From: Pseudoalteromonas sp. UG3-2
GTDB lineage: Bacteria; Pseudomonadota; Gammaproteobacteria; Enterobacterales; Alteromonadaceae
DNA: 64,000 nucleotides
Assembly: GCF_037120705.1 (NCBI RefSeq)
Contig: NZ_JAWLJU010000002.1
Span: 1,674,001 to 1,738,000, forward strand
Direction: 5' to 3'
The notes beneath the pieces were generated by a model. The model was not told the origin of the DNA, did no database searches, and worked only from the letters and a program-made list of their open reading frames with translations. This document shows, in pieces, positions 4,514-64,000 of the stretch. The position numbers were made by a program, and so were the translations under genes. Every line of letters begins with the position of its first letter. Within the stretch, counting starts at the first letter, position 1.

Positions 4514-4514
4514 C

Positions 4515-5869: not shown

Positions 5870-5877
5870 CATACTAT

Positions 5878-6716: not shown

Positions 6717-6802
6717 CCACGCTAAAACATAAAATAAAGTTCAAATTATTGTAAAAAATATGTATATTAAATTTTACTAAAAACTAAGGTGCAGGATTAA
6801 GA

Positions 6803-9509: not shown

Positions 9510-9511
9510 GG

Positions 9512-9913: not shown

Positions 9914-9939
9914 AGCTCTTTCCCTATTATTTAAAAATA

Positions 9940-11515
9940 ATCGCGATATAAAATCGCTGCTACACCTAGCGTCATTCCGGACTTGATCCGGAATCCATAT
10001 AAAACCATTGCATCGACATCGGTACCTTTTTATCGCGATGTTAAATCATGAAAACAATCGCGATATAAAATCGCTGCTACGGCATTGTGCGCGTGTTTTA
10101 AATACCGCAGCTATTAACCCAACCTGTACACACGGATTTATTCCGTGGACCTAATGGACCCTGAATCAAGTTCAGGGTGACGTATTTTGTAGCCGCGGAT
10201 TTATTCCGCGAACTCAATGGACCCTGAATCAAATTCAGGGTGACGAGTTTTGTAGGCGCGGATTAATTCCGCGGACCCAATGGACCCTGAATCAAGTTCA
10301 GGGTGACGAATTATATAGCAGCGGATTAATTCCGCGGAAAGACCTCACCTAAAGCTCCCTTGTAGGACCGGCTTTACGCCGGGATCTTTTAGCGCGATAT
10401 AAAATCGCGTCTACAACGTTCCCCTGTTGTGTTATAAAACCGCGCCTACATCAGGCGTCATTCCGGACTTGATCCGGAATCCATATAAAACCATTGCGCC
10501 GGCATCGATATCTTTTTATCGCGGACCCAATGGACCCTGAATCAAGTTCAGGGTGACGAATTATGTAGCAGCGGATTTATTCCGCGGACCCAATGGACCC
10601 TGAATCAAGTTCAGGGTGACGAATTATATAGCAGCGGATTAATTCCGCGGAAAGACCTCACCTAAAGCTCCCTTGTAGGACCGGCTTTACGCCGGGATCT
10701 TTTAGCGCGATATAAAATCGCGTCTACAACGTTCCCCTGTTGTGTTATAAAACCGCGCCTACATCAGGCGTCATTCCGGACTTGATCCGGAATCCATATA
10801 AAACCATTGCGCCGGCATCGATATCTTTTTATCGCGGACCCAATGGACCCTGAATCAAGTTCAGGGTGACGAATTATGTAGCAGCGGATTTATTCCGCGG
10901 TGATACCTCAGCCTAAAGCTCCCTTGTGGGACCGGCTTTATGCCGGGATCTTTTATCGCGATATAAAATCGCTGCTACGACATTGTGCGCGTGTATTAAA
11001 CATCGCGGTCAACAAACCACCCAACCCGTACCCACGGGTTTACTCCGCGAACCCAGTGGACCCTGAATCAAGTTCAGGGTGACGAATTATGTAGCAGCGG
11101 ATTTATTCCGCGGTGATACCTCAGCCTAAAGCTCCCTTGTGGGACCGGCTTTATGCCGGGATCTTTTATCGCGGTTTAAAATCATGAAAACCATCGCGAT
11201 ATAAAATCGCTGCTACGACATCGTGCATTTGTTTAGAGCACCAAAATCAATAACCTCTCCGGGCCCGTAGCAGCGGATTTATTCCGCGACCTCGTGACCA
11301 CAACACATAACCATAAAAACAATCGCGATATAAAATCGCTGCTACGACATTGTGCGCGTGTCTTAAACATCGCGGTCAACAAACCAGCCAACCCGTAGGC
11401 GCGGATTTATTCCGCGAACCCAATGGACCCTGAATCAAGTTCAGGGTGACTAATTTTGTAGGCGCGGATTTATTTCGCGACCCCAATGGACCCTGAATAA
11501 AGTTCAGGGTCACGG
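9940..11515. repeat. REP cluster 3 (between csgE and the curlin gene)
   Basis: Nearly 1.6 kb of GTAG-headed and GTCA-headed palindromes, with no plausible gene. By eye there are at least nine CCCTGAATCAAGTTCAGGG-type hairpins and three TTCCGGACTTGATCCGGAA hairpins, interleaved with GTAG-type hairpins in both orientations. It contains a near-perfect 313-bp tandem duplication (listed separately) and a further duplicated stretch of about 100 bp at 10868 and 11081. The block separates the curlin gene from csgEFG, which are on the same strand; if they share a transcript it must read through this block. Confidence 0.93.
10268..10893. repeat. Tandem duplication of a 313-bp REP-containing unit
   Basis: Two successive 313-bp copies (about 10268-10580 and 10581-10893) carry the same ordered elements: GTCA hairpin, GTAG hairpin, GCCGG hairpin, inverted GTAG hairpin, CCGGA hairpin. 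I found no difference when reading the shared interior base by base, so the duplication is recent. Confidence 0.88.
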
Positions 11516-11525
11516 TATGGGCTTT

Positions 11526-13076
11526 TTATTGTTGCGTGATGGTGGCTACGTTGTTGTCGCCTACTTGGGTAACGGTGATATTTTGGCCGCTGCTGGCGAT
11601 GCCGCCTTGTACTAGGTTGCCGTTGCCGAGCTGGCTTACCGTTAGGCTGTTGTCGTCACCGTTAATAACAAAGGCGCCTTGGTCCATGCCGACCACAAAG
11701 TTATTGTCGCCACTTTGGGTGATGTCGAGCATATTGCGGCTGCCTTCGAGCATGATATCAATAGCATTAAACTCACCAGATTGCGCAATATCCACTTGGT
11801 TACTGCTGCTATCAAACACACTGCTCATGGTGACTGCTGCGCCATTGCCCATACCGTCTTGGGCAATATCAATTTGGTTGTCGTTGCTGGCAAGGCTGAC
11901 ATCAGGGTAAGAAGACTGCACCAGCACTTCGTTTTCACTGCCGCTTTGGGTGACATCCACATCGTTATTGTTGCCGTTAAAATTAGCGACATGAGCTTGG
12001 TTGTTATCGCCCAACTGCATGGCACTAAACTCATTGTTATTGCCAGCTACACCTAAATACACATCGTTATTGCCAGCTACACCTAAATACACATCGTTAT
12101 TATTGCCATCTTGCAGTGCCATAAACTGGTTATCGTCACCGATGACATCCGCGGCGGCTTGGTTTTCGCTGCCATTTTGTTGTGCTACCACCTCGTTGTC
12201 GGCGCCTACCAGCATGTCTGAGGTAAAGCTGTTTAACGAGCCTTCTTGATCAATACTGAGCTCATTATCGCTGCCTGAAATCTCAAACACAGAAACCGTA
12301 TTGTCTTCCCCTTCAGACTGCTCAATCGCCACTTCGATATTGTCGCCAATTAGAGTCTCAATTTGGATTTCGTTGTAGTCACCGCTTTGCCGCGTTTCAA
12401 TTTCGTTATTGCTGCCCTCAATACTGACCAAGCCAAATTGGTTATAAAAGCCATTTTGGTCCAGCGCGATGTCGTTCATATCGCCTTGAACCGACTCCAG
12501 CGTTGCCTCATTCCAGGTACCCGATTGCGTTGCTGAAACCGTATTTTGGCTGCCTTGCATATCCAGATTATAAAACCAATGGCCACCAGCGCCTTGGGTC
12601 ACTGTAATGTTATTTTGGTCGCCAGTGATTTTGTTAATGGCTTCGTTATTAATGCCTAATAAACCAGTGCCTGACTGCATCACATCAATGTTATTAGCAT
12701 CACCGGTTAACTCTGTTGCTACGCCATTGACTTCGCCATCTTGAGTATAGGTTTGGGTGTTGTTGTTACCTGTGGTGGTGATAAATGCGGCGTTATCAGA
12801 ACCGTTTTGGGTTGCCACAGTGGCGTTATTGTCACCGACGGTGGTGATCTCGGTTAAATTTGCCGTACCTAACTGCGTGGTTTCCAGTTCATTGCCACCT
12901 TGTTCGGCTGCGGTTTGCGAAATAGTAAGTTCGTTGCTTTCACCGGCGGCTCTTTCAGCTTGGGCAAGCACCGATGTCGACAGTGGCTTGTCTGCCTTAT
13001 CTGCAGCCAGTGCTGCTGTAGAGTGTGTTAGTGCAATAGCGATAGCAGCACTTACGATTGATTTTGAAAACTTCAC
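11526..13076 (-). CDS. Very large curlin-repeat protein, predicted curli fibre subunit
   Basis: 516 residues from the GTG at 13076, chosen because AAGGAG lies six bases upstream and the first residues then form a clean signal peptide (FSKSIVSAAIAIALTHSTAALA). The rest consists of about 20 curlin units of roughly 22 residues with the Q-x-G-x-x-N pattern, e.g. ITQSGDNN, VTQSGSEN, IAQSGEFN, VTQVGDNNVATITQQ. E. coli CsgA and CsgB have five units each in about 150 residues; here one protein has about four times as many and no second curlin gene is visible. It is rich in Asp, Glu and Asn. A 30-bp perfect tandem duplication (12041-12100) repeats ten residues. CsgEFG are downstream on the same strand, so it is the probable secreted substrate. 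Confidence 0.9.
   Translation of the reverse strand: MKFSKSIVSAAIAIALTHSTAALAADKADKPLSTSVLAQAERAAGESNELTISQTAAEQGGNELETTQLGTANLTEITTVGDNNATVATQNGSDNAAFITTTGNNNTQTYTQDGEVNGVATELTGDANNIDVMQSGTGLLGINNEAINKITGDQNNITVTQGAGGHWFYNLDMQGSQNTVSATQSGTWNEATLESVQGDMNDIALDQNGFYNQFGLVSIEGSNNEIETRQSGDYNEIQIETLIGDNIEVAIEQSEGEDNTVSVFEISGSDNELSIDQEGSLNSFTSDMLVGADNEVVAQQNGSENQAAADVIGDDNQFMALQDGNNNDVYLGVAGNNDVYLGVAGNNNEFSAMQLGDNNQAHVANFNGNNNDVDVTQSGSENEVLVQSSYPDVSLASNDNQIDIAQDGMGNGAAVTMSSVFDSSSNQVDIAQSGEFNAIDIMLEGSRNMLDITQSGDNNFVVGMDQGAFVINGDDNSLTVSQLGNGNLVQGGIASSGQNITVTQVGDNNVATITQQ
12041..12100 (-). repeat. Perfect 30-bp tandem duplication inside the curlin gene
   Basis: The 30 bases at 12041-12070 are repeated exactly at 12071-12100, in frame, duplicating the ten-residue segment NNDVYLGVAG without the usual Gln, so one curlin unit is longer than the others. 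Confidence 0.95.
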
Positions 13077-45802: not shown

Positions 45803-48127
45803 CTAGAAAACGGCCTTTTCAAAAGACTCACAAAACTTTAACTCTAATTCTGAAGTTGAAGGCTTTTTAGTATTCAGCAACTCTAAATACATATTCAGTA
45901 GACTTTCGGAATTCAGGTTCTGAATCGCAATATTAGGTACGTCGTATTTTTCAGCTAGAGAGCGCACTTTCCCTTTACCCATTGTATAGTCGATAGCCAT
46001 TGAGCTAACATCTAAGCCAAGACCAAAGACTAGAGAGTGAAACCTCATTGCAACTAAACCATCTGCTGCTGCAATTTGCTCAGCATAATCTATCGGGGCG
46101 AGCTCTTTGCCCAATAAACTATAATCAAGATAATCATTTAATTTATCTGAATACCGGAAAAGCTTGCGATAAAACCACCTATCATCACTACCAAAATGAT
46201 TTGTACACATAGGTAATGGCTTAATAATTAAGTTTGGATTTGTCTCAACCAACTTTTCAAGGGATTTAATTACGGATTTTTCATAATTATCTTTTATTTT
46301 AATTGAATCATCCTTTGAATAATCTCTTGCATACTCTTGATAAGGGAAGTCTCTTAAGCCCAACATCAAAACTTTTTTGGATTGTACTTTATCTGTTTGT
46401 TCATTTTGGATTGCTTGTTTAATTGATGCTAACCATGTAAAAGCGGGATCTTCAGCCACAAAATCATTCTTTATATCAACACCTAGAGATTGAGCACCTC
46501 GTAAAGATTTCTCATCACGGTAAATCTTAACATCACTTAATTTTAAAATAGCTGCAATACTATCATTTAACCACTCATCACCTAATGGGCCAACTCCACA
46601 GCTAGCTACTATTGTTTTTGCGCCATTCTCCTTTGCATTCTCAAACATTACATGCATTGGAGCAAGAGCATTAATTGCCATTAAAGGACCGCCACCAAAG
46701 ACCATATAATCTACCTTTTTTGATAAATACAATGCTTCATCTATACTAACAACACTAGCACTCTTTAACTCTGGCATTTGAAGTTGAGTCATTTTACAAA
46801 TATATTTATTCAAAGAAGCTATTATTATTTGAGTATCCTCACCTAAGTATTTCTTGAAAGCTAAAATAATACCCGCCAGTATTGCTTTATCACCCAAAGT
46901 TTCTGTGCCATACCACCCACATATTAATACTGATTTTGACTTTCTTACAGCAACATTTGAAATTGAGTCATTAGCCCTCAAAGTTTTAAGCTTTTCTAGG
47001 TACGCTTTTTTCTTCTTAAAATCATTAATAGTAATTAAACCTGGTATTTTTTTTAGTTTATCTCTTAAATTTAATTTACTTTTTAAATATTCACCTAACA
47101 ACCTTCTATAAACTTGTGGGCTTGGTTTACCTGTATAGTCATGATTGCAGTTATCACAATCATTCTTGATTATATCTTGTAAGTGTTTCTCATTAGAAAA
47201 ATAAGCTTGTTTTGGATCTCCAGTTGCTATATTAGGCATTAAAGTTTTACTTTGGACAGCACAATAAGCAAGTTCACCTTTAGCCGTAATTGTAGCTCCA
47301 CGGTGCTTCCAATTACAGCCAGCTTCCCGTGGCTTCTGGTACAAAATTTGGTTGATTAAAGATCTATAGAAAAAGTTTTGCATTATACTTTTTTCGTAAG
47401 ATTCAATTAAGCCTTCTAAAAACTCAACTAACTCATACTTTTCAGTAAATGTTAATGCATAAGGATCTAATAAGTTTTCTGTATACAACCTCTGATGAGG
47501 TATACCTAGACGATACTTTATATAAAGTTCATTTTTTATACAGAACTCAAGAAGCTCTGTTAAATGAAAGACATTTTCTTTTATTATTGTGCAGCCAATA
47601 CGAACATTATCCACATCAGCAGATTCCTTGGCGTACTTTATAACATGTTGCGCATTTTTAAAGTTTCCAGTTTTACCTCTTACTTTATCATGCACCTCTT
47701 CAAACCCATCTAGTGAAATCATAACATCGAAGTTTATATTATTTTTTTTGCATATAATGCCTATTTGCTCAATTTTTTCGATTACTTGCTTGTATTTGTA
47801 GGCATTAGTAATAAGAGATATAGCCTTCAACTTAGGCATACCATCAACACAAGTTTGGACAACTTCTTTTAAGTCATCACGTAAAGTGGGTTCTCCACCA
47901 TTAAACCCTATGCTGCTCACCTCAGAAAACAAATCACTTGTTAGGCCTTTTTGTAAGTCAGCTACAGTTATATCAGAACTTTGTTTGTTCTCCCAAATAC
48001 GACACATTTGGCATTTAGAATTACAAATATCAATCACAGGAAATTGTATAACTTGTGGTTTTTCTAATTGAAACGGGTAGGGTTCAAAAAGTGGCTTTAA
48101 GTTGTTATAAACTGTTGATATTTTCAT
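45803..48127 (-). CDS. Fusion of a radical SAM/SPASM-like enzyme and a polysaccharide pyruvyltransferase domain
   Basis: 774 residues in one uninterrupted frame. Residues 1-340: radical SAM core with CxxxCxxC at C35, C39, C42 (VIDICNSKCQMCRIW), the GGEP motif (78-81) and a C-terminal SPASM-like cysteine set (C272, C290, C325, C328). After a Lys-rich linker, residues 399-750 form a CsaB/WcaK-type polysaccharide pyruvyltransferase domain: VLICGWYGTETLGDKAIL, DYMVFGGGPLM, VASCGVGPLG, VAEDPAFTW, MRFHSLVFGLG. Pyruvyltransferases add pyruvate ketals to sugars from phosphoenolpyruvate. The radical SAM part has no assignable substrate; it could modify the same glycan or the protein could be a larger bifunctional tailoring enzyme. 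Located second after the flippase gene. Confidence 0.88.
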   Translation of the reverse strand: MKISTVYNNLKPLFEPYPFQLEKPQVIQFPVIDICNSKCQMCRIWENKQSSDITVADLQKGLTSDLFSEVSSIGFNGGEPTLRDDLKEVVQTCVDGMPKLKAISLITNAYKYKQVIEKIEQIGIICKKNNINFDVMISLDGFEEVHDKVRGKTGNFKNAQHVIKYAKESADVDNVRIGCTIIKENVFHLTELLEFCIKNELYIKYRLGIPHQRLYTENLLDPYALTFTEKYELVEFLEGLIESYEKSIMQNFFYRSLINQILYQKPREAGCNWKHRGATITAKGELAYCAVQSKTLMPNIATGDPKQAYFSNEKHLQDIIKNDCDNCNHDYTGKPSPQVYRRLLGEYLKSKLNLRDKLKKIPGLITINDFKKKKAYLEKLKTLRANDSISNVAVRKSKSVLICGWYGTETLGDKAILAGIILAFKKYLGEDTQIIIASLNKYICKMTQLQMPELKSASVVSIDEALYLSKKVDYMVFGGGPLMAINALAPMHVMFENAKENGAKTIVASCGVGPLGDEWLNDSIAAILKLSDVKIYRDEKSLRGAQSLGVDIKNDFVAEDPAFTWLASIKQAIQNEQTDKVQSKKVLMLGLRDFPYQEYARDYSKDDSIKIKDNYEKSVIKSLEKLVETNPNLIIKPLPMCTNHFGSDDRWFYRKLFRYSDKLNDYLDYSLLGKELAPIDYAEQIAAADGLVAMRFHSLVFGLGLDVSSMAIDYTMGKGKVRSLAEKYDVPNIAIQNLNSESLLNMYLELLNTKKPSTSELELKFCESFEKAVF

Positions 48128-53273: not shown

Positions 53274-53464
53274 TATGTCTTCCTAAAATTTTTAATGTTC
53301 TTTTTACTGCTTTTGATCTAGCAATTTTTTGATGGTTAATTAAAGCATGGCAAGATGTTAATCGCAAGTGAGTTCTTGTATCGCAACATGAAGTTGCTGC
53401 TAGGCTTTGATTGACCATTTTGCTTGTTCTTTGCTTTTATTTTCTGCTTTTGTAACGCTGCGCG

Positions 53465-55395
53465 TTTGGACCCTGAATCAAGTTCAGGGTGACGGAGCAA
53501 ACGATCGCGATGTTGAATTGTAAAAACAGTCGCGATGTAAAATCATAAAAACAGTCGCGATATAAAATCGCTGCTACGGTATCGTGCATTTGTTTCAAGC
53601 GTTTGGACCCTGAATCAAGTTCAGGGTGACGGTGCAAACGATCGCGATGTTGCATTGTAAAAACAGTCGCGATGTAAAATCGCTGCTACGGTATCGTGCA
53701 TTTGTCGTAAGCACCAAGCCCAATAACACCTCCAACCCGTAGCAGCGGATTTATTCCGCGACCTCTTGACCATAGGCACGCAACCTAAAAACCATCACGA
53801 TATAAAATCATGAAAACAGTCGCGATGTTGAATTGTAAAAACAGTCGCGATGTAAAATCATAAAAACAGTCGCGATATAAAATCGCTGCTACGGTATCGT
53901 GCATTTATCGTAAGCACCAAGCCCAATAACATCTCCAACCCTTAGCAGCGGATTTATTCCGCGACCTCTTGACCATAGGCACGCAACTTAAAAACCATCA
54001 CAATATAAAGCCATGAAAACAATCGCGATGTAAAATCATAAAAACAGTCGCGATGTAAAATCATAAAAACAGTCGCGATATATAATCGTTGCTACGGTAT
54101 CGTGCATTTGTTTCAAGCGTTTGGACCCTGAATCAAGTTCAGGGTGACGGTGCAAACAATCGCGATGTTGAATTGTAAAAACAATCGTGATGTAAAATCA
54201 TAAAAACAGTCGCGATATAAAATCGCTGCTACGGTATCGTGTATTTGTTTCAAGCGTTTGGACCCTGAATCAAGTTCAGTGTGACGGTGCAAACGATCGC
54301 GATGTTGAATTGTAAAAACAGTCGCGATGTAAAGCCGCTGCTACGGTATCGTGCATTTGTTTCAAGCGTTTGGACCCTGAATCAAGTTCAGGGTGACGGT
54401 GCAAACAATCGCGATGTAAAATCATAAAAACAGTCGCGATATAAAATCGCTGCTACGGTATCGTGCATTTATCGTAAGCACCAAGCCCAATAACACCTCC
54501 AACCCGTAGCAGCGGATTTATTCCGCGACCTCTTGACCATAGGCACGCAACCTAAAAACCATCACGATATAAAATCATGAAAACAATCGCGATGTTAAAT
54601 CATTAAAACAATCGCGATGTAAAATCGCTGCTACGGTATCGTGCATTTGTTTCAAGCGTTTGGACCCTGAATCTAGTTCAGGGTGACGGTGCAAACAATC
54701 GCGATGTTGAATTGTAAAAACGGTCGCGATATAAAATCATAAAAACAGTCGCGATATAAAATCGCTGCTACGGCATTGTATGCGTGTATTTATCGTAAGC
54801 ACCAAGCCCAACAACACCTCCAACCCGTAGCAGCGGATTTATTCCGCGAACCCATTGGACCCTGAATCGAGTTCAGGGTGACGGGGTTTATAGGCGCGGA
54901 TTTATTCCGCGGTGGTACCTCAACCTAAAGCTCCCTTGTGGGACCGGCTTTATGCCGGGATCTTTTATCGCGATATAAAATCGCTGCTACCTAATGTGGT
55001 TTAGGCACGCTTCCGCCCTTAGGTTGCAGCTCCTAAATGCTGTTTTTTTGTGAATTTTTGCTCGTTTTGACCTAACGCTGCTGCGTTCGCCTGTCGCGAT
55101 GTTCAATTATGAAAACAATCGCGATGTAAAATCATAAAAACAGTCGCGATGTAAAATCGCTGCTACGGTACCGTGCATTTGTTTCAAGCGTTTGGCCCCT
55201 GAATCAAGTTCAGGGTGACGGTGCAAACAATCGCGATGTTAAATCATAAAAACAGTCGCGATATAAAGCCGCTGCTACGGTATCGTGCATTTGTTTCAGG
55301 CGTTTGGACCCTGAATCAAGTTCAGGGTGACGAAGCGAACGATCGCGATGTTGAATTGTAAAAACAGTCGCGATGTAAAAGCGCCGCTACGAGTT
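53465..55395. repeat. REP cluster 8 (between rfaH and wza)
   Basis: About 1.9 kb of repeats of a recognisable sub-type: ACAGTCGCGAT in place of ACAATCGCGAT, and a recurrent order of GTCA hairpin (CCCTGAATCAAGTTCAGGG, at least nine copies), GACGGTGCAAACGATCGCG, GTTGAATTGTAAAAACAG and a GTAG-type arm. Full inverted GTAG pairs occur at about 53675-53760, 53875-53960, 54440-54530 and 54760-54850. The block is interrupted by a repeat-free island at 54991-55097 that holds a JUMPstart-like element. No gene is credible. Confidence 0.92.
55006..55042 (-). promoter_or_regulatory. JUMPstart/ops-like element (RfaH recruitment site)
   Basis: Read on the minus strand, 55017-55006 is GGCGGAAGCGTG, eleven of twelve bases of the E. 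coli ops site GGCGGTAGCGTG. It is preceded by CAGCATTTAGGAGCTGCAAC, matching much of the upstream JUMPstart consensus (CAG..., GG.AGCTG). It lies downstream of rfaH and about 1.73 kb before the wza start, on the wza strand. The single change is at T6, a base that E. coli RfaH reads directly, so binding needs testing. A small hairpin (AACGC-AGCA-GCGTT) lies just upstream. Confidence 0.7.
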
Positions 55396-55457
55396 TTGTT
55401 ATTTTTAAATATGAACCAACCAGCGTTTTACCGTGCTCTATCGTTTTAGTTAAACCT

Positions 55458-55934
55458 TTATAACTTTTTTATTGCGTTATTATCAACAGTGATTTTTGTA
55501 TTTTGGTTTAACAGCTTGATAAGCAAGATACTTCTTTTTTCGCCGTCTGGCTCTTGGTAAAGGGCTTGTATGTTTTTGTAACAACCCTCGGTTAACATTA
55601 CCGTGTCACCTTGATTTAATTCGCATTCGATTGGCTGTTCTGGAGACTGCATTAGCTGTGTGACGAGTTCGCTTGGCACCAGTTGTAAGTTTGCGCCGTA
55701 ACGAACAAAGTCTGAGACTCCACGAGTATTTCTTACCGCAGAGAAAGAGGCGGTTTCAGGATTTAAGCTGACGAATAAGTAGCGCGGAAAAAGAGGTTGC
55801 TTTACCGCTTTAGATGAAGTGGTTTTGCTTTTACTAATGCTTGGATAGCAAGCTGTGATGCCCTGTGCCGCTAAGTTTTCTTGGGCTCGGCTTTCTTGCT
55901 TGGGTTTGCAATATACTAAATACCAGCACTCCAT
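55458..55934 (-). CDS. rfaH: RfaH, operon-specific transcription antiterminator
   Basis: 158 residues from the ATG at 55934 (AAGGA nine bases upstream; a GTG two codons earlier is too close to the ribosome site). NusG-type NGN domain: WYLVYCKPKQESRAQENLAAQGITACYP, KQPLFPRYLFVSLNPET, NTRGVSDFVRYGANLQLVP; then the KOW-like C-terminal domain DTVMLTEGCYKNIQALYQEPDGEKRSILLIKLLN. Closely follows E. coli RfaH rather than NusG. It binds ops DNA on paused RNA polymerase and prevents termination in long surface-glycan operons. It sits between two such operons on the same strand. Confidence 0.95.
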   Translation of the reverse strand: MECWYLVYCKPKQESRAQENLAAQGITACYPSISKSKTTSSKAVKQPLFPRYLFVSLNPETASFSAVRNTRGVSDFVRYGANLQLVPSELVTQLMQSPEQPIECELNQGDTVMLTEGCYKNIQALYQEPDGEKRSILLIKLLNQNTKITVDNNAIKKL

Positions 55935-56451
55935 GTGCACTCTTCCTTAAAACCAATCATAAAGTATGGGCGACATTATACCCAATTTATCAATTGCGTC
56001 TAGCCTAGTATGGGGAGTTGTTTATTGCCCTTTAAAGAATAGAATCGTTTCGAGAGTTCTTGGTTGGAAGTTAGGTCCGAATTCAGCTTTAAGGTGCGAC
56101 AATTTCTACAAAATTAAGCAGCCTGCGTGTTTTTTTAAATACCACACCTGGCTGCTTAAAGCTCAAACACTTTCGTGGTCGATAATTTATCCGCGACATC
56201 GCGAACCCAACAACTGCACCACTTACCTCTCTCAAATCGATGCCTTTGTTTATATATTGCCGAAGCAGAGAACGCCCCTTCCAACAATATGGAAATCTGA
56301 AATTTTCTGCCCTCGGTCAAGTGCTGATATCTCATGGTCGTACTGCTTGTTTCTTAGCCGAGAAGAGCGTGCCACTTTCAGCAGTTGGTTTCCTCCTCTA
56401 CGCGATCTCATGAGTGCGCACTTAAATAGCTGAAATCAGCGCGAACTTCAT
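55935..56451. other. Gap between the GT56 gene and rfaH
   Basis: About 500 bp free of REP elements. It holds the inverted repeat at 56114-56159 and must contain the rfaH promoter. An open frame on the plus strand (55966-56433) has no ribosome site, family resemblance or partner and is judged spurious. No ops-like sequence is visible here. Confidence 0.55.
56114..56159 (-). terminator. Long-loop inverted repeat downstream of the GT56 gene
   Basis: TTAAGCAGCC (56114-56123) and GGCTGCTTAA are exactly complementary with a loop of about 25 bases that has partial extra pairing (ACACGC/GTGTGG). On the minus strand the stem is followed by TTTTG. A terminator for the rml operon or a 5'-leader structure of rfaH are both possible. 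Confidence 0.45.
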
Positions 56452-57498
56452 TTACACCAGCTTATCAACAAGCGATTTAGTTTTTTTTATCGTTACTTCT
56501 GAATTAAAAAACTTTAGACTTAGGCTTTTATTTATTCCCATGTCATCCATTGATATACAATCAAAATTTAAGTTTTCTTTATTAAAAAGCCTGAAACCCA
56601 TGCATTTAAAATAGTCGTATAAAGGGTTGTCTTTATCTAAAAAAACTTTAGCACCCAATGATAACATAATAAGGACATTCCCGGCCGCTTCTTGCCTTTT
56701 ATGGTTCATAATGACAAAAGCGCAACGTTTAAGAGTAGAGAAATACTCCTCCTGGGTTAAAAAATCCCTTAGAATTGTGTAATTCAATGAAGTAGATTTC
56801 AACTTAGCTATGATCTTTTCAGCATATTCACTATCACCATACGACAATGGCACGATGATTTCTCGCTTCTCATTTAATTTAACTAAATCATCGATTATTT
56901 CAAGGTGGTTATTTGTCTCAGTTGCACTATTCCCTAACAATATTGAGTCACCATCAATATAATCATGTTTAAGTTTTTTAACAACTTTATCTGAAGAACC
57001 ATAATTCCAATCTACATATTGTGCATTTAACCTTAATCGTTTTGACACCTCTTCAAATTCACTTTCTAAAACAGGACAAAAGTAATTAATTTTTTGATAA
57101 GATGCGTCTAAATTAAAAATGCTATATTTAATAAAATACCTAAGCCCTTTTTTTTCCTCCTTTCGCCCTGGTAGAATTTTATTGTAATCATAGTAATCAA
57201 ACCCAAAGCCAACCCAACATATATTCAACCTCTTAGGAATGAGCTTTATAAAAAATTTAAACACACCATTTAGTGAGTGAAAAACAACAGCATCATACTC
57301 CTTTAACCGACCAATGAGTATTTGTAATAAAAAAGCTGATTTTGATTTGATGGTGACATTTTTATTTTTTATATATTCTAGTGAGCTCTCTTTACTAATA
57401 ACCAAAAAATCACTTTTAACATGACTTATTGCATTAAAATTAGCAATAGCAGAGTCAATAAACTTTTCATCTGAACATACATGTAAGATTTTTTTCAC
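56452..57498 (-). CDS. GT56 family (WecF-like) 4-acetamido-4,6-dideoxyhexosyl transferase
   Basis: 348 residues. The C-terminal half has the GT56 features of WecF: ILLGNSATETNNHLEII, IIVPLSYGDSEYAEKII, EEYFSTLKRCAFVIMNHKRQEAAGNVLIMLSLGAKVFLD. WecF adds Fuc4NAc from dTDP-Fuc4NAc to a lipid-linked intermediate. The genes upstream (rmlA, rmlB, a 4-aminotransferase, an acyltransferase) would supply such a dTDP-4-amino sugar, which makes this the likely transferase for the modified sugar. N-terminal half is divergent. Two bases separate it from the ATP-grasp gene. Confidence 0.85.
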   Translation of the reverse strand: MKKILHVCSDEKFIDSAIANFNAISHVKSDFLVISKESSLEYIKNKNVTIKSKSAFLLQILIGRLKEYDAVVFHSLNGVFKFFIKLIPKRLNICWVGFGFDYYDYNKILPGRKEEKKGLRYFIKYSIFNLDASYQKINYFCPVLESEFEEVSKRLRLNAQYVDWNYGSSDKVVKKLKHDYIDGDSILLGNSATETNNHLEIIDDLVKLNEKREIIVPLSYGDSEYAEKIIAKLKSTSLNYTILRDFLTQEEYFSTLKRCAFVIMNHKRQEAAGNVLIMLSLGAKVFLDKDNPLYDYFKCMGFRLFNKENLNFDCISMDDMGINKSLSLKFFNSEVTIKKTKSLVDKLV

Positions 57499-57499
57499 A

Positions 57500-58507
57500 T
57501 CACAACCTTACCGGTTTTATATCTTTACTAGATAAAATATCAGTATTAATTGTCGTCAACTCTTGATTAGTTTTCAACCCCATACACCAATCGACTATTT
57601 GCTTAGGGATATTAGCCCCCGCCAAATGTGAAAATGGGTATTGACCGCCAAATCGGGCATTGAGTTCTAAAACATAAAACTCACCATCGATTTCCAAACA
57701 ATCAGAATCTAGTATAGCAATATGCCCTACTGCTGATGATAAACGTTGACCAATTGCTGACAATTTATCATTTTTGATGGTGATAGCTTGATCTGTTTCA
57801 CCTGAGCGCATAGCCAGCTTTTTCTTGCAAAATGTTGTTACGTAGTTTTTTTGTAGGTCATTAACAACTTCAATGCCGTATTCCTCACTGGCAATGCACT
57901 GCTGAATTAATATTGCTTGGTCGATATCGGCCCTCGACTCGAATTTTAGATAAGATGATTCGATTTCATTGCGTACCTTTTTGTAAAGTACTTGCAGCTC
58001 TTCTAAATTATCGGCTTTATAAATACCAATTGAACCCATACCCCAGCGCGGTTTAATAATGACAGGGTATTCAAGCTCTGTATTATTAAGTGCCGTAACC
58101 GCCTCTGAAAATGAGATATAGGTTGCCGGCGTTTTAATATTATGCTGTATTAAAAACTGATAGGTTTTCCATTTATCATTACAAATATCAATCACTTCAG
58201 GGTCAGAAACAACAACATCAACACCAACTTCTTTAAAACGCTGTTTATTTTTAGCTAATATAGGTAAATCGATATCAAAAAGTGAAACAAGCACTGTGAT
58301 TTTATTTTTTATACAGTAGTCTATTAGAAAATCTATGTATTCAGCCGAGTATATTTGTGGTGTTAATGTAAACGCATCCGCCTGTTGTAAGGCATATGTT
58401 TCTATGCTATTTGCAGCAAACACTTTACCGTTTAACGGTTTGAGCGATTCTTTAAAATAGTTAATGAGGTAGCTTCTTCGCCCTACTGAGGTTAATAATA
58501 TATTCAT
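57500..58507 (-). CDS. ATP-grasp ligase (carbamoyl-phosphate-synthase/PylC-like)
   Basis: 335 residues. N-terminal pre-ATP-grasp fold (NILLTSVGRRSYLINYF), then the ATP-grasp domain: DKWKTYQFLIQHNIKTPATYI, YPVIIKPRWGMGSIGIYKA (Lys binding ATP), QCIASEEYGIEVVNDL and the metal-binding end YVLELNARFGGQYPFSHLAG. Such enzymes join a carboxylate, often an amino acid, to an amine. In this operon the obvious amine is a 4-amino-4,6-dideoxyhexose, so aminoacylation of that sugar is proposed, as an inference. Overlaps the PLP enzyme gene by four bases. Confidence 0.87.
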   Translation of the reverse strand: MNILLTSVGRRSYLINYFKESLKPLNGKVFAANSIETYALQQADAFTLTPQIYSAEYIDFLIDYCIKNKITVLVSLFDIDLPILAKNKQRFKEVGVDVVVSDPEVIDICNDKWKTYQFLIQHNIKTPATYISFSEAVTALNNTELEYPVIIKPRWGMGSIGIYKADNLEELQVLYKKVRNEIESSYLKFESRADIDQAILIQQCIASEEYGIEVVNDLQKNYVTTFCKKKLAMRSGETDQAITIKNDKLSAIGQRLSSAVGHIAILDSDCLEIDGEFYVLELNARFGGQYPFSHLAGANIPKQIVDWCMGLKTNQELTTINTDILSSKDIKPVRL

Positions 58508-59418
58508 ATTTGCTTAGTCGCCATTAAGTTTAATAATCCACCTGTGTGCCAAAAAAGTACATTACTACCCGGCTTCACTTTCCCACTTTTAATATACTGT
58601 TGCATACCATGCCATGCCTTGCCTGAGTATGTGGGATCGAGTATGATTCCAGTCTGTTCAGCTACGCTTTTAATTACACTTAATTGCTCAGGGTTAGTTT
58701 TTTCATACCCCCCTGCAATATATTCATCATCAAACATTATATTTTCTGATAGTTCAGTATCTAACTGGTTTGCATTAACGAACTCTAAAACAGAATGGGT
58801 GATCGCCTCTGTACCTCGAGGATTTTCTCGAGCAACACTAATACCAATAACCTGAGTCGCTAAATTTATTTTTTTAAATCCTACATGTAACCCAGCTTGG
58901 GTTGCACCAGTACCACTTGCATGAAAAACAAAATCAAAGTGTTGCTTAGCTTGTGTGTGCGCTTCAAATGCAGCATCGTAAAATGCTTGCGTGCCTTCTA
59001 AACAATGCCCGCCCCCCCAAATATAAAATGGCTTTAAGCCTTGCTTTGCATGCTCTGCCATTTCAGCGTCCATTACTTTTGCAACATCAACCATGTCGCA
59101 ATAGGCTATTTTGACACCAAGCAGCCGCAGTAATTTAAGATTACCATTAGACTCTCTCGGCTCAGAGGCGTGAATGACTATTGTGCACGCAATGCCCAGC
59201 TCTTTGCAACGTATTGCTGTGGCTCTTACGTGGTTTGATTGTGCACCGCCACAAGTGACAACTGCGTTACAACCATCTGCAATACATTTAGCCAAAATAT
59301 ATTCCGCTTTACGACCTTTATTACCACCACCAGAAATAGGATATAGATCGTCTCGTTTTACGAACAGGTTCACACCTAAATAGTTAACTTTAATTAGTGG
59401 CGTTTCTGTTGACCTCAT
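58504..59418 (-). CDS. PLP-dependent D-cysteine desulfhydrase / ACC deaminase family protein
   Basis: 304 residues of the tryptophan-synthase-beta-like fold: PLP lysine K34 in GGGNKGRKAEYI, TCGGAQSNHVRATA and HASGTGATQAGL (phosphate binding). At the two positions known to separate the activities in this family, ACC deaminases have Glu (in VYEGK) and Leu (in HLGG); here they are Ser265 (TYSGK) and Thr292 (HTGG), the D-cysteine desulfhydrase pattern. It is probably not an ACC deaminase. In this operon it may instead make or release a small amino acid or keto acid for the ATP-grasp ligase. Overlaps genes on both sides by four bases, so it is a true member of the operon. Confidence 0.85.
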   Translation of the reverse strand: MRSTETPLIKVNYLGVNLFVKRDDLYPISGGGNKGRKAEYILAKCIADGCNAVVTCGGAQSNHVRATAIRCKELGIACTIVIHASEPRESNGNLKLLRLLGVKIAYCDMVDVAKVMDAEMAEHAKQGLKPFYIWGGGHCLEGTQAFYDAAFEAHTQAKQHFDFVFHASGTGATQAGLHVGFKKINLATQVIGISVARENPRGTEAITHSVLEFVNANQLDTELSENIMFDDEYIAGGYEKTNPEQLSVIKSVAEQTGIILDPTYSGKAWHGMQQYIKSGKVKPGSNVLFWHTGGLLNLMATKQI

Positions 59419-59867
59419 GATAACTTTAATTCCATTTTCAAACCTTTAATGCAACTACCCTCATAATTAAATTCATTAATGGTCTTAAAGCCCACTTTCT
59501 TATATAAATAACTGGCGGGACTATCGGCTCTAACTGTGAGTGATAGACTATTAAATTGCTTCGATTTTAAATCTGCAATAGCGAGTTCAAGTAATTGTTT
59601 ACTCAATCCCTGGCCCCTAGAGTTTGGTAATATAGCAATAAATGGACAAAAGGCTATTTTATTATCTAGATCGTTCATGTATATAGCGATTGCACCCACC
59701 AACTGGTTCTGCTTATATAATCCAAAAACAGTTGCAACCTTTAGTAACTTTAAAGCGTATTGCTCTAAGTTGACTCGTGATGACAATGTAGGTGAAAAGT
59801 CAGCATCCACTTGGTTTAAAAGTTTAAAAAAGGGTGTAAAGTCGCCCTCATTTAATACATTAACCAC
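59415..59867 (-). CDS. GNAT family N-acetyltransferase
   Basis: 150 residues from GTG 59867 (AGAGG six bases before). GNAT fold with the acetyl-CoA-binding loop in AILPNSRGQGLSKQLLELAI (RGQGLS) and a following SLTVRADSPASYLYKKVGF. Probably N-acylates the amino sugar made by the neighbouring aminotransferase, or an amino acid attached to it. Starts just before the aminotransferase stop and overlaps the PLP gene. Confidence 0.88.
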   Translation of the reverse strand: MVNVLNEGDFTPFFKLLNQVDADFSPTLSSRVNLEQYALKLLKVATVFGLYKQNQLVGAIAIYMNDLDNKIAFCPFIAILPNSRGQGLSKQLLELAIADLKSKQFNSLSLTVRADSPASYLYKKVGFKTINEFNYEGSCIKGLKMELKLS

Positions 59868-60951
59868 AAATAACCTCTATAATTTTCATTTGCTCTTCTT
59901 CTGCTAAGGCATTATGAATGGGTATACACAATACTTGCTCTGAAATTGCTTTAGCATTAGGAGTATTGCTAGCGTAGCCCTTATAAAGCTCAAACTGGGT
60001 TACTAACGGGTAAAAATAACGCCGAGCAAGGATGTTATTAGCCTGTAACTTTTCAAGTAGCTCATCACGGCTTAAGCCAAACTCAGCTTGGTCAATTAAA
60101 ATAGGATAATATGAATAGTTAAGTTGTAAGCTGGAGTGGTTATCGAGTATTTTAATACCAGCTGTAGTACTAAATGCCTTATCGTAATAGTTAGCAATTG
60201 ATTTTCGTTTAGCTATAGACTCATCTATTTTGTTTAAAGCAACGAGCCCAAAAGCAGCTTGTATTTCGTTGAGTTTTGCATTCATTCCACACACACTTAT
60301 TTGTGTTTCAGACTCAAAACCAAAGTTTTTTAATTGATCTAGCCTTTGCTTTTGCTCTAGCGTTTTACAAACAACCGCTCCGCCTTCTATAGTAGAGTAG
60401 GCCTTGGTCGCGTGAAAACTTAAAATAGATAAATCACCATAATTTAACACTGACTGATTATCTTGTTTTACTGCAAATGCATGGGCTGCATCATAGATCA
60501 CTTTTAAGCCATGCTTTTTAGCGATCGCGTCAATTGCAGGATCATTACACGGAGTACCATACACGTGAACAGGCAAAATAGCCGAAGTTTTCTCGGTTAT
60601 AGCCGCTTCAATTTTTGCCGGATCGATATTAAATGTAGCAGGGTCAATATCAACAAAAACCGGGGTTAGGTTATTCCACTTTATTGCATGAGCGGTTGCC
60701 ACAAACGTGTAAGGCGTAGTAATTACTTCCCCTGTCAGTTCTAGCGACTGTAAAGCGGTTATAAGTGCCAATGTCCCGTTAGAAAACAAACTTATATAAG
60801 GTACATCAAGGTACTTACATAGCTTATCTTCAAGCTGTTGATGGTAATGGCCGCTATTAGTTAACCACTTACGTTGCCAAATGTCTTCAAGATAAGGGGT
60901 TAATTCATCTAAAGGCGGTAACAGTGGTGAAGTGACTGTTATTTTATCCAT
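59860..60951 (-). CDS. DegT/DnrJ/EryC1/StrS aminotransferase, VioA-like dTDP-4-keto-6-deoxyglucose 4-aminotransferase
   Basis: 363 residues from ATG 60951; a TTG four codons earlier overlaps the flippase gene further. ITVTSPLLPPLDELTPYLEDIWQRKWLTNSG, ISLFSNGTLALITALQ, ITTPYTFVATAHAIKWNNLTPVFVDIDP and the PLP lysine K183 in SFHATKAYSTIEGG match the VioA group that makes dTDP-Qui4N. The donor is the RmlA-RmlB product from the same operon. The sugar could be Qui4N or, given the GT56 transferase, Fuc4N; sequence alone does not decide. Confidence 0.88.
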   Translation of the reverse strand: MDKITVTSPLLPPLDELTPYLEDIWQRKWLTNSGHYHQQLEDKLCKYLDVPYISLFSNGTLALITALQSLELTGEVITTPYTFVATAHAIKWNNLTPVFVDIDPATFNIDPAKIEAAITEKTSAILPVHVYGTPCNDPAIDAIAKKHGLKVIYDAAHAFAVKQDNQSVLNYGDLSILSFHATKAYSTIEGGAVVCKTLEQKQRLDQLKNFGFESETQISVCGMNAKLNEIQAAFGLVALNKIDESIAKRKSIANYYDKAFSTTAGIKILDNHSSLQLNYSYYPILIDQAEFGLSRDELLEKLQANNILARRYFYPLVTQFELYKGYASNTPNAKAISEQVLCIPIHNALAEEEQMKIIEVICG

Positions 60952-62398
60952 TTTTAAATTCAACCTTTTTTCTAAAAATCACATGTAAAATTTGTTTGTA
61001 TAAATCATTAACTGTGCAACGAATAAAACCAATGTAAATCAAAGGCATCAAAGTTAGGTTAATAGCTAAATGAACAGCTGGGTCCGCGATATAGTTTGTT
61101 GCCACATACCAAGATACAATATAAGTAAGTAATCCACTAAACATTACACAACCCCAAATAGGGAGTAATGCGGCTAACTGTTTAGTTGTTTTTAAACGAC
61201 TAAACCGACCTGTATAAAAAGAGTTAACAAAAAAAGCAATAAACGAATGTACCAACAACCCGATACACATAGCCTCAACACCAAATGGAATGGTAATAAA
61301 CAATATAATTGCAATTAAACTTTTTTTAATTATCTCTAATTTTAAAAATATATCTGAGCGGCCTTTGACTTGTAATAAATTTAAATTTATTGCGTGAATT
61401 GGATAAAGCATAAAAGCAAAACTCAAGATAGTTAGTAATTCTGCTGCAGGTAACCACTTAGATCCAAGAACCAGATTAATAAATGGCTCTGCTGAGATGC
61501 TCAACCCCACCATTATAGGGAACACAACCAACGCAGCCAATCGTAATGTTAGTAGATACGTATTTTCAAATTTATTAACATCATTCTGAATATTGCTTAG
61601 CATGGGGTAAGTAACACGCTGTATGACTGTAGTCATAGTCATTGCTGGAATTAGAGATAATTGATTTGCTTGAGTAAATAAACCAACTTGAGTCGCACTA
61701 AATTGCTTACCAATTATAATTTGGTAAATGTTTTTAAATACGGTATCAATGAGTGATGCAGCTAATAACTTAGAACCAAAATCAAATAAGTAGTTAAAAG
61801 ACTTTTTACTAAACCCCGTTTTTGGCAACCAAGGATGAAAAACATTTAATAAGATAACCAAAAGCAGCGCATTCGATAATGTCTGACCTACCAAAGCCCA
61901 CACACCGTAGTCTAGTTCAGCCATATACAAGGCCACCCCACTGCTGATAACAACGCTGAGTAATGACGCTTTAGCCTGTGTTTTGAAATCCATAGCAATG
62001 GTTAGCTTAGCTCTTTGTACAATTGCAAAACTATTTATAACAATAGTTATTGCAAGTACCCTCATTAAATTAACTAATTCTGGCTGATCATAAAATTTAG
62101 CGACACTAGGTGCCGCAAAAAAGAGAGTTAAGTAACAAAATAAACCAACAAAGATATTAAAGTAAAAGGCAGTTGAAAAATCCACTTCCTTGCGTTCAGT
62201 ATAGCGAATCAAAGCGGCCGTAAAACCACTATCGGTGAAGACCTGACTTATAGCAATAAACACGGCTAACATACCGACTAAGCCGAATGCATTTGGTCCT
62301 AACAGCCTGGCCAGAAACAACATAACTATCAATTGAATGGCTTGAGTAACTAATCGCTCAATAGCGCTCCATTTCAAAGCATTTGAAGAGGATTTCAT
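60944..62398 (-). CDS. wzx: WzxC-type polysaccharide flippase
   Basis: 484 residues with about 14 membrane helices. Starts NALKWSAIERLVTQAIQLIVMLFLARLLGPNAFGLVGMLAVFIAISQVFTDSGFTAALIR, the signature of the WzxC/colanic-acid-exporter branch, distinct from the shorter flippase at 48143-49438. Two different flippases imply two separate glycans. Seven bases after rmlA. Confidence 0.92.
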   Translation of the reverse strand: MKSSSNALKWSAIERLVTQAIQLIVMLFLARLLGPNAFGLVGMLAVFIAISQVFTDSGFTAALIRYTERKEVDFSTAFYFNIFVGLFCYLTLFFAAPSVAKFYDQPELVNLMRVLAITIVINSFAIVQRAKLTIAMDFKTQAKASLLSVVISSGVALYMAELDYGVWALVGQTLSNALLLVILLNVFHPWLPKTGFSKKSFNYLFDFGSKLLAASLIDTVFKNIYQIIIGKQFSATQVGLFTQANQLSLIPAMTMTTVIQRVTYPMLSNIQNDVNKFENTYLLTLRLAALVVFPIMVGLSISAEPFINLVLGSKWLPAAELLTILSFAFMLYPIHAINLNLLQVKGRSDIFLKLEIIKKSLIAIILFITIPFGVEAMCIGLLVHSFIAFFVNSFYTGRFSRLKTTKQLAALLPIWGCVMFSGLLTYIVSWYVATNYIADPAVHLAINLTLMPLIYIGFIRCTVNDLYKQILHVIFRKKVEFKNG

Positions 62399-62404
62399 AT
62401 ATTT

Positions 62405-63271
62405 TTATAAATCAGCTAAATAGCGACCATAACCATTCTTAGACATTAGTCTGGCTCTTGCAACCAGCTCTTCTGTCGTTAACCAACCATTATTAAATGC
62501 GATCTCTTCTAAACAGGCAATTTTATACCCTTGGCATCGTTCAATTGTTTCTACAAATTGCGCAGCTTCAAGCAGGCTTTCATGGGTGCCAGTATCTAAC
62601 CAAGTAAAACCACGGCCTAGCACTTCAACATTAAGCTTATTTTGCTTTAAATACATTTCATTAAGGCAGGTGATCTCTAACTCACCACGATGCGATGGCT
62701 CAACTTTTTTTGCCATTTCAATCACTGAATTATCGTAAAAATAGAGCCCTGTCACTGCAAAGTGGGATTTGGGCTTCGTTGGCTTTTCTTCGATAGAAAT
62801 TGCTTTTTTATTTTGGTCAAACTCTACAACACCAAAACGTTCAGGGTCTTTTACTTGATAGCCAAACACTGTTGCACCTTGACCATTTTTTGCATTTTCA
62901 ACAGCATGTTTGAGCTTAGTGGTAAAACCTTGGCCATAAAAAATATTATCACCTAGCACTAAACAGACATCGTCATTACCAATGAAATCTTCACCCAAGA
63001 TAAATGCTTGAGCTAATCCATCAGGACTTGGTTGAGTTGTATAGCTTAGTTCAACCCCGAATTGTGAGCCATCACCCAATAAACGTTTGAACGAATCACT
63101 GTCTTCAGGTGTAGTGATTATAAGTATCTCTCGGATCCCCGCTAACATTAAAACCGATAGGGGATAATAAACCATCGGCTTATCATAAATTGGCAAGAGC
63201 TGTTTAGAAACACCCATTGTAATCGGGTATAAGCGAGTACCGGAACCTCCAGCTAAAATAATGCCTTTCAT
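62405..63271 (-). CDS. rmlA: RmlA, glucose-1-phosphate thymidylyltransferase
   Basis: 288 residues, full length. [75 protein letters not shown] and [17 protein letters not shown]. Makes dTDP-glucose. Twelve bases after rmlB. No rmlC or rmlD is present in the visible part; the next steps are the aminotransferase and acyltransferase, so the operon branches to a dTDP-amino sugar rather than rhamnose. Confidence 0.97.
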
Positions 63272-63283
63272 TATCCTTCCTTT

Positions 63284-64000
63284 TTAAAGCGTACCAAGTC
63301 GTTCTCTTTGGTAAGAGCCATTTTGAACATTATTACACCAAGCTTGATTATCTAAATACCATTGCACTGTTTTACGCAAACCTGTTTCAAATGTTTCTGC
63401 GGGAGTCCAGTCTAGTTCTTTACTCATTTTCGAGGAATCAATCGCGTATCGACGATCGTGACCAGGTCGATCATTTACAAATTTAATTTGATCTGAATAC
63501 TTTGATTTTTTTGGGACTAATTCGTCAAGAATAGTGCAAATGGCTTTAACAACTTCAATATTTTGCTTTTCATTATGGCCGCCAATGTTATATGTTTCGC
63601 CTACTTTACCTTCAGTTACTACTTTATATAAAGCGTTCGCGTGATCTTCTACATATAACCAGTCACGTATTTGATCCCCTTTACCATATATAGGCAGCTC
63701 TTTACCTTCTAACGCATTTAAAATAACAAGCGGAATAAGCTTTTCAGGAAAATGATACGGACCGTAATTATTGGAGCAATTGGTAATTATAGTTGGAAAA
63801 CCGTAAGTACGCAACCATGCACGGACAAGGTGATCACTTGAAGCTTTACTTGCAGAGTATGGACTGCTTGGCGCATAAGGTGTTTGTTCAGTAAATAATG
63901 GCAGCTCATTTTTACTATATTTATCTTCATCTGGATGCGGTAAATCACCATATACTTCATCTGTTGAAATATGATGGAATCTAAATGTAGACTTTTTATC
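63284..64000 (-). CDS. rmlB: RmlB, dTDP-glucose 4,6-dehydratase (5' end beyond the window)
   Basis: The frame is open to the right edge, beginning in-window with [15 protein letters not shown], which includes the catalytic Thr-Asp-Glu, then [22 protein letters not shown] with the YxxxK pair, [18 protein letters not shown] and the C-terminal [16 protein letters not shown]. About 239 residues are visible; roughly 115-120 N-terminal residues including the NAD-binding glycines lie outside. A TTG at 63814 is not the start. Converts dTDP-glucose to dTDP-4-keto-6-deoxyglucose. Confidence 0.97.

Follow-up and report, generated by a model that had tools for sequence, protein, structure and literature searches.

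A predicted gene cassette for an N-acyl-aminoacyl derivative of dTDP-Qui4N in Pseudoalteromonas sp. UG3-2

INTRODUCTION

The surface glycans of several bacteria include Qui4N and related sugars that bear an amino acid. The E. coli O121 glycan contains N-acetylglycyl-Qui4N, and E. coli O121 and Shigella dysenteriae 7 share one common antigen. In Neisseria, the site of action of PglB2 is the C4 amine of UDP-bacillosamine. PglB2 has been described as an ATP grasp/phosphoglycosyltransferase whose product is a glyceramido-acetamido trideoxyhexose (PMC11130364). Glycans described for Pseudoalteromonas in PMC3210612 contain 4-(N-acetyl-D-alanyl)amino-4,6-dideoxy-D-glucose and a uronic acid L-alanine amide, 2,3-diacetamido-2,3-dideoxy-D-mannuronoyl-L-alanine. 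N-acetyl-D-aspartyl-Qui4N in Providencia stuartii O33, N-[(S)-3-hydroxybutyryl]-D-alanyl-Qui4N in the E. coli O123 glycan, the unusual amino acid L-allothreonine on Qui4N and a D-glyceroyl amide on QuiNAc4N of Pragia fontium are given in PMC10609480.

The present study concerns a 64,000-nucleotide stretch of the Pseudoalteromonas sp. UG3-2 genome (contig NZ_JAWLJU010000002.1, positions 1,674,001 to 1,738,000), here called the window. An initial annotation had suggested that five of its genes attach an N-acylated amino acid to the amino group of a dTDP-4-amino-4,6-dideoxyhexose, and had called the enzymes of such routes poorly described. No published description of this enzyme route for aminoacyl Qui4N was found in the open-access literature searched; nevertheless, the idea is less unprecedented than first implied, as the glycans have been described chemically (PMC3210612, PMC10609480) and an ATP-grasp precedent exists in PglB2 (PMC11130364).

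RESULTS

Open reading frames and Pfam matches confirmed that the aminotransferase, GNAT, PLP enzyme (PALP), ATP-grasp ligase and GT56 transferase lie in one minus-strand run (Table 1). Three junctions overlap (aminotransferase/GNAT by 8 nt, GNAT/PALP and PALP/ATP-grasp by 4 nt each), and the ATP-grasp and GT56 genes are separated by a 1-base gap. The initial placement of the genes 3' of rmlB-rmlA was correct but omitted the Wzx-type flippase gene between rmlA and the aminotransferase gene. The listed aminotransferase reading frame has a TTG start, with an ATG four codons further, near 60951, and rmlB extends beyond the window end, the whole gene encoding 358 aa (L009). A gene of the UDP-glucose-dehydrogenase family lies upstream (L009, 11015-12181). 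The order rmlB-rmlA-wzx-aminotransferase-acyltransferase-PALP-ATP-grasp was also found in P. arctica, genome G052, E. coli plasmids and two genomes taken as Vibrio, and this recurrence indicates that the order is beyond chance. In five further modules of the same order (L015, L025, L027, L059, L060), the flippase showed 55-91% identity.

Table 1. Genes of the run and its 3' neighbour in the window
Feature	Position	Strand	Match
rmlB (rfbB), dTDP-glucose 4,6-dehydratase	63284..64000	-	TIGR01181, 334 bits (in-window part)
rmlA (rfbA), glucose-1-phosphate thymidylyltransferase	62405..63271	-	TIGR01207, 499 bits, above cut-off
Wzx-type flippase	60944..62398	-	PF13440, 313 bits
VioA-like aminotransferase (DegT_DnrJ_EryC1)	59860..60963	-	PF01041, 332 bits
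GNAT	59415..59867	-	PF13673/PF00583
PALP (fold-type II PLP enzyme)	58504..59418	-	PF00291, 143 bits
ATP-grasp carboxylate-amine ligase, 335 aa	57500..58507	-	PF21360, PF02655, others
GT56 (WecF-like) transferase	56452..57498	-	PF07429, 48.6 bits (cut-off 25)
RfaH-type antiterminator (3' of run; context, outside the pathway)	55458..55940	-	NF006534 and TIGR01955, both above cut-off

The aminotransferase is clearly nearer VioA of E. coli O7 (56% identity over 364 aa) than WecE (27%), and the predicted sugar is thus most likely dTDP-Qui4N, which supports and narrows the 4-amino-4,6-dideoxyhexose originally proposed. Its top NCBIfam model was DesI (300 bits vs a cut-off of 650). E. coli O7 shares this aminotransferase step but has VioB, annotated as a dTDP-Qui4N acetyltransferase; the open reading frames and Pfam matches of the window run included no VioB. 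The Fuc4NAc genes of enterobacterial common antigen (rffG, rffH, rffC/wecD, wecE, wzxE, wecF) resemble the run in combining rmlB-rmlA, an acyltransferase, an aminotransferase, wzx and a GT56 gene. However, beyond the distance to WecE, the GT56 protein is 22% identical to K-12 WecF, the GNAT has no significant similarity to WecD by BLAST, and the window adds PALP and ATP-grasp. With at most 139 bits against WecF models (NF002756, cut-off 457), the window transferase appears, on sequence comparison, to be a GT56 relative and not WecF.

In a gene-neighbourhood survey of the ATP-grasp/PLP pair, as the initial annotation had called for, every one of the 12 PALP-clade loci with readable surroundings had a DegT aminotransferase together with the trio of PALP, N-acyltransferase and ATP-grasp, a count that omits L013 (short contig) and L029 (a 37% PALP relative without sugar genes, placed outside the PALP clade in the tree). 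These loci lie in Pseudoalteromonas and its relatives, in an E. coli, and on a Sphingobium plasmid. Among 107 Pseudoalteromonas genomes, the ATP-grasp was present in four (five places, E up to 1e-45), which are exactly the four with the PALP clade. GT56 is not constant, occurring in only half of the modules (6 of 12). The aminotransferases of L026, L014 and L028 are just 37-44% identical to that of the window, and the sugar at these loci may therefore differ. At L030, L036 and L034, the trio stands beside a sugar transferase and a different aminotransferase, and these look like bacillosamine-type loci.

The window GNAT matched the GNAT of E. coli O121 (E 2e-17), shows homology to the GNAT part of a protein in which GNAT and PALP are fused, and is predicted to N-acetylate the amino acid. 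Because a formyltransferase takes the place of the GNAT in two modules (L027 and L028) and GNAT-PALP fusions of ~460 aa exist (at least 10 among the 120 homologues listed), the target of the acyl group is probably something that PALP makes; an exchangeable acyltransferase is also what would be expected if the acyl group caps the nitrogen of an amino acid. Alternatively, the GNAT might acetylate the 4-amino group directly, giving plain Qui4NAc, with PALP and ATP-grasp modifying another residue, for example by attaching an amino acid to a uronic acid through an amide. The UDP-glucose-dehydrogenase-family gene and the uronic acid L-alanine amide reported in PMC3210612 would suit this arrangement. 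We nevertheless consider it unlikely: a sugar aminotransferase accompanies the trio in all 12 modules, the GNAT is O121-like and not detectably WecD-like, and similar GNATs are fused to PALP elsewhere.

The ATP-grasp protein has the whole carboxylate-amine ligase fold with conserved nucleotide- and Mg-type residues, and scored 366 bits against NF009404 'carbamoyl phosphate synthase-like' (cut-off 316). Its architecture, free-standing and without a phosphoglycosyltransferase fusion, sets it apart from PglB2. It is predicted to attach an (N-acyl)amino acid at the 4-amino group of the sugar, this amide being proposed because of the linkage to a sugar aminotransferase and because of precedent. That the ligase attaches a hydroxy acid instead, for instance glycerate as in PglB2, appears very improbable: a distant relative (32% identity) in Priestia (L037) lies beside a HAD hydrolase with neither PALP nor GNAT annotated nearby, and PMC10609480 gives the D-glyceroyl amide of Pragia fontium, but a hydroxy acid would need neither the PLP enzyme nor the N-acyltransferase present in all 12 modules.

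PALP belongs to the fold-type II PLP enzymes, with PF00291, a conserved K34 and a TM-score of 0.89 to D-cysteine desulfhydrase, and its nearest solved folds are D-cysteine desulfhydrases. K34, S61, Y238 and Y264, which have catalytic roles in relatives, are conserved. The protein missed every cut-off of its NCBIfam relatives and belongs to a separate clade beside D-cysteine desulfhydrase, CuyA and ACC deaminase (support 93). It scored 158-169 bits against the PRK03910 D-cysteine desulfhydrase models (cut-offs 429 to 610), 219 bits against CuyA D-cysteate sulfo-lyase (cut-off 450) and 158.9 bits against the ACC deaminase model TIGR01274 (cut-off 392), and was assigned to none of the three. These enzymes share its fold, PLP lysine, Ser61, Tyr238 and Tyr264; however, the PALP clade has His83 and His138, whereas Glu and Ser stand there in all 12 proteins of the CuyA type and its relatives that were read, and in 9 of 9 over-cut-off CuyA proteins read (10 over-cut-off places, nine of them listed as loci). 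This difference suggests a different chemistry or substrate.

PALP is predicted to be the source of the amino acid, which would be a D form or otherwise non-standard. Racemase activity is the weakest step of the pathway, at about even odds. Characterised members of the ACC deaminase/D-cysteine desulfhydrase branch carry out elimination or deamination, and to our knowledge it contains no racemase. An alternative, somewhat less probable than not, has the same coupling but a PALP that is no racemase: it would form a non-standard amino acid through elimination or through replacement at the beta or gamma position, or serve solely as a lyase clearing a competing D-amino acid. The closest characterised relatives are lyases and deaminases, the window's genome already encodes an alanine racemase, and unusual amino acids such as L-allothreonine on Qui4N are given in PMC10609480. 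On the other hand, a clearing enzyme would need neither fusion to GNAT nor travel with the ligase, and the clade's own His83/His138 set it apart from the lyase-type relatives.

DISCUSSION

We propose, with a probability of about 0.77, that the run is a cassette for dTDP-4-(N-acyl-aminoacyl)amino-4,6-dideoxy-D-glucose used in a surface polysaccharide. RmlA and RmlB would form dTDP-4-keto-6-deoxyglucose, which the VioA-like aminotransferase would convert to dTDP-Qui4N. PALP would provide the amino acid, with inversion of a common L-amino acid to the D form as the most likely means, and GNAT would acetylate the amino group of this amino acid, either before or after coupling; in L034 the GNAT is fused to a sugar transferase, as might be expected if acylation followed coupling or were directed at the sugar. 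The ATP-grasp ligase would convert a carboxyl group of the (N-acetyl)amino acid to an acyl phosphate and link the amino acid to the 4-amino group of the sugar. GT56 is predicted to pass the completed Qui4N derivative on to a lipid-linked acceptor as the repeat unit is assembled, and Wzx would flip the lipid-linked unit.

The families, catalytic-type residues, conserved linkage and exchangeable acyltransferase are seen in sequence or fold. That an amino acid is joined to the 4-amino group and N-acylated, as first proposed, is partly supported, by the 12 of 12 linkage of trio and aminotransferase, the exchangeable acyltransferase and the O121-like GNAT. Known glycans and D-specific relatives of PALP suggest which amino acid it may be and that it is a D form. 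No strain was found that combines this module with a solved glycan, and the two are therefore linked by family only. The five genes look like a portable kit by which an unusual 4-amino sugar is capped with an acetylated amino acid, probably in D form, ahead of its incorporation into the surface polysaccharide. More tentatively, and with the odds against both parts holding together, the PALP clade with its conserved His83/His138 may be the first amino-acid racemase of its branch, and PALP, exchangeable N-acyltransferase and ATP-grasp a general, horizontally moving module that places N-acyl-D-amino acids (D-Asp or D-Ala foremost) on dTDP-Qui4N and UDP-bacillosamine-type sugars at their C4 amine, in Pseudomonadota and, judged from homologues alone, in Bacteroidota.

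With a fixed gene signature, glycan structure could be predicted from sequence. The pathway is also a concrete candidate for in vitro reconstruction, and the module draws attention to a separate PLP-enzyme clade.

The WbqC route of E. coli O121/S. dysenteriae 7 and E. coli O123 likewise combines a VioA-like aminotransferase with a GNAT, but has a WbqC-family protein, of putative role, in place of ATP-grasp and PALP. WbqC (PF08889) was present in O121 and O123 and absent from the window run. In E. coli O123, WbqC and a GNAT lie between galF and gnd, where neither PALP nor ATP-grasp is annotated, and the D-alanyl-Qui4N of this strain thus indicates that D-alanine alone needs no PALP; the window's genome also encodes an alanine racemase and an Asp/Glu-racemase-family protein. 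The S. dysenteriae D7 and E. coli O123 glycans carry an N-acylated aminoacyl group on Qui4N, as predicted for the window (PMC10609480). PglB2 likewise brings an ATP-grasp domain to the synthesis of an amino trideoxyhexose whose N-acyl group is unusual (PMC11130364); however, it is fused to the phosphoglycosyltransferase and adds glycerate, whereas the window ligase accompanies PALP and GNAT and probably acts on dTDP-Qui4N. The route is a variant on known chemistry, that of Neisseria PglB2 and of the WbqC route, and the module appears to be another way of achieving the chemistry for which WbqC is present in other clusters.

Results

Gene organization and the predicted sugar

The source genome of the window comprises two contigs (4.16 Mb), and an O-antigen/capsule-type region on the minus strand encodes rmlB, rmlA, a Wzx flippase, a DegT aminotransferase, a GNAT N-acyltransferase, a fold-type II PLP enzyme (PALP), an ATP-grasp ligase and a GT56 transferase. 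The initial annotation correctly described five overlapping genes from the aminotransferase to GT56 (overlaps of 8, 4 and 4 nt, the last pair 1 base apart) but missed the Wzx flippase. Upstream of the run are genes for a protein of the UDP-glucose-dehydrogenase family, for a WecA-like member of glycosyl transferase family 4 and for two glycosyltransferases, together with a WecG/TagA gene on the opposite strand; an RfaH-type gene follows the run. Neighbouring features are included in the table; the CCTGAATCAAGTTCAGG palindrome has 26 matches in the window at ≤3 mismatches, against 0 expected.

The aminotransferase showed 56% identity (364 aa) to VioA of Escherichia coli O7 and 27% to WecE of strain K-12, so that dTDP-Qui4N is favoured over dTDP-Fuc4N as the predicted sugar, despite a transferase of the same family as K-12 WecF (22% identity).

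Coordinates of features in the window and in loci (L-numbers) read around homologues
Location	Coordinates	Feature
Window	58504-59418 (-)	PALP
Window	56156-56335	Short ORF in the gap separating the GT56 and rfaH-type genes; on visual inspection, similar to the beginning of an IS30-type transposase
Window	53280-55450	2.2-kb repeat array free of long ORFs, flanked by the rfaH-type gene and an export gene; ~25-bp units (71-nt reference in 31 copies, mostly 25 apart) nested within 112-, 137- and 203-bp units; holds the palindrome, which is found again at 6.3-11.5 kb and at 23.7-24.0 kb
Window	45803-48127	774-aa ORF in the neighbouring polysaccharide operon; by eye, putative radical-SAM and polysaccharide-pyruvyltransferase-like halves
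L014 (Paraglaciecola)	6392-7102	Second, shortened ATP-grasp gene directly before PALP (236 aa, without the C-terminal part); perhaps a remnant of a replaced module
L015 (E. coli plasmid LR890610.1, 36.7 kb)	4108-12982	rmlB-rmlA-wzx-aminotransferase-GNAT-PALP-ATP-grasp-GT2, transposase genes nearby; possible plasmid-borne surface-glycan cassette
L030 (P. arctica)	2021-6256	Second, putative bacillosamine-type module in the same locus as a Qui4N-type one: sugar transferase, PALP, PseH-like GNAT (under the PseH cut-off), ATP-grasp, aminotransferase
L037 (Priestia plasmid)	5237-8649	Aminotransferase, sugar transferase, ATP-grasp and HAD hydrolase grouped; PALP and GNAT absent from annotation
L038 (E. 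coli O123/O186)	10638-11612	324-aa protein without Pfam match, between WbqC and GNAT

Linkage and distribution of the module

PALP, the ATP-grasp ligase, an N-acyltransferase and a DegT aminotransferase occurred together in all 12 modules with readable context: the window, P. arctica (L025, L030), MMG010 (L026), genomes G052 (L027), G496 (L028) and G1084 (L034), Paraglaciecola (L014, encountered again as L035), plasmids of E. coli (L015) and Sphingobium (L036), and two putative Vibrio genomes (L059, L060). Because the query that retrieved L015 was the complete run, the gene content of that locus was guaranteed; the others, including the second P. arctica module, were retrieved by PALP searches, L036 also matching the ATP-grasp search. 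L011 and L012 duplicate L025 and L026. Two loci were excluded from the count: in L013, PALP sits at the edge of a contig of 4.9 kb; L029 has a PALP relative at 37% and no sugar genes, and served as contrast.

The N-acyltransferase was a free GNAT in 9/12 modules (in L059 a 112-aa ORF only, its end missing against Pfam), a sugar-transferase-GNAT fusion in L034, and a formyltransferase (PF00551) in L027 and L028. GT56 is not a fixed part, being present in 6/12 (window, L014, L026, L027, L059 and L060). Six modules form one group by aminotransferase: the window itself and L015, L025, L027, L059 and L060, whose enzymes share 66-96% identity with that of the window. In L026, L014 and L028 the figure is 37-44%, and the sugar may thus differ there. 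L030, L034 and L036, which we read as putative bacillosamine-type loci, carry a different aminotransferase (26-29% to the window's, 65-70% among themselves) adjoining a Bac_transf sugar transferase. The moving unit is therefore the trio of PALP, N-acyltransferase and ATP-grasp ligase, not the aminotransferase.

Within Pseudoalteromonas, the ATP-grasp ligase was found in 4/107 genomes at five places, and the PALP search (E 1e-50) matched 5/108, one of which was the L029 genome; the four with an ATP-grasp match are the same four that have the PALP clade. The module was present in 5/395 genomes of the family, 2/227 of the putative Vibrio genus, 1/321 class-wide and, at blastn sensitivity, 4/5,426 complete E. 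coli genomes, every one on a plasmid. This rarity and scatter suggest horizontal movement.

Discussion

The predicted structure of PALP (pLDDT 93) is nearest to D-cysteine desulfhydrase folds (TM-score 0.89), and the protein has conserved Lys34, Ser61, Tyr238 and Tyr264, which we take to be the catalytic residues of its family. PALP fell below every NCBIfam cut-off and formed its own clade on a long branch (support 93; 41 hand-chosen sequences, L059 and L060 left out). His138, Arg197, Ser61 and Lys267 were identical in 128/128 aligned clade members and His83 was kept in at least 97%, whereas in 12/12 proteins read that are of CuyA type or related, Glu and Ser occupy the positions of His83 and His138. 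Because D-aminoacyl glycans are known, PALP has D-specific relatives and a dedicated supplier would be needed, we infer that PALP may racemise an amino acid. Against this, D-alanine sits on Qui4N in E. coli O123, as a review records (PMC10609480), with both PALP and ATP-grasp absent from the annotation of its cluster from galF to gnd, and the window's genome also encodes alanine racemase and an Asp/Glu-racemase-family protein. The L038 cluster is that for hydroxybutyryl-D-alanyl-Qui4N, and the O121 (glycine) cluster has no counterpart of its 324-aa gene there; the encoded protein is a candidate for handling D-alanine.

The window's ACYLTRANSFERASE matched the GNAT encoded in the O121 cluster of E. 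coli (33% across 100 aa, E 2e-17). This cluster also encodes a VioA-like aminotransferase and WbqC. The O121 antigen is presumably the same as that of Shigella dysenteriae 7. The latter glycan is recorded as containing N-acetylglycyl-Qui4N (PMC10609480). BLAST gave no significant match between the window's GNAT and WecD, which per its record annotation acetylates the sugar amine itself, and the similarity to the O123 GNAT was weak at most (E 0.011). GNAT-PALP fusions, 10/120 among the homologues listed, tie acetylation to the PALP product, and one of them (P0064) matched the window's GNAT at E 2e-17; the sugar-transferase-GNAT fusion of L034 points the opposite way on the timing of acetylation relative to coupling.

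A review of marine bacteria lists 4-(N-acetyl-D-alanyl)amino-4,6-dideoxy-D-glucose among Pseudoalteromonas polysaccharides, the source behind it being the capsule of Alteromonas sp. CMM 155 (PMC3210612), and a review table gives N-acetyl-D-aspartyl-Qui4N for Providencia stuartii O33, an N-acetyl-L-aspartyl group for P. alcalifaciens O4 and further aminoacyl groups (PMC10609480). PALP and ATP-grasp relatives also occur, at genus level, in Providencia and Proteus.

Considering these comparisons, we propose, with a probability of roughly 0.77, that the ATP-grasp ligase would join an (N-acyl)amino acid to the 4-amino group of dTDP-Qui4N. The joining of an amino acid to a 4-amino sugar by this ligase, as originally suggested, is a prediction well supported by comparison, short of proof. 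The L037 group may represent a PglB2-like relative that adds glycerate. The WbqC clusters make a product of the same kind as predicted for the window's run, and PglB2 of Neisseria is a ligase of the same kind as its ATP-grasp enzyme. No description of the PALP/GNAT/ATP-grasp combination was found in the open-licence papers searched; the product kind and the ligase kind are already known from these two systems, and what would be new is the combination of enzymes.
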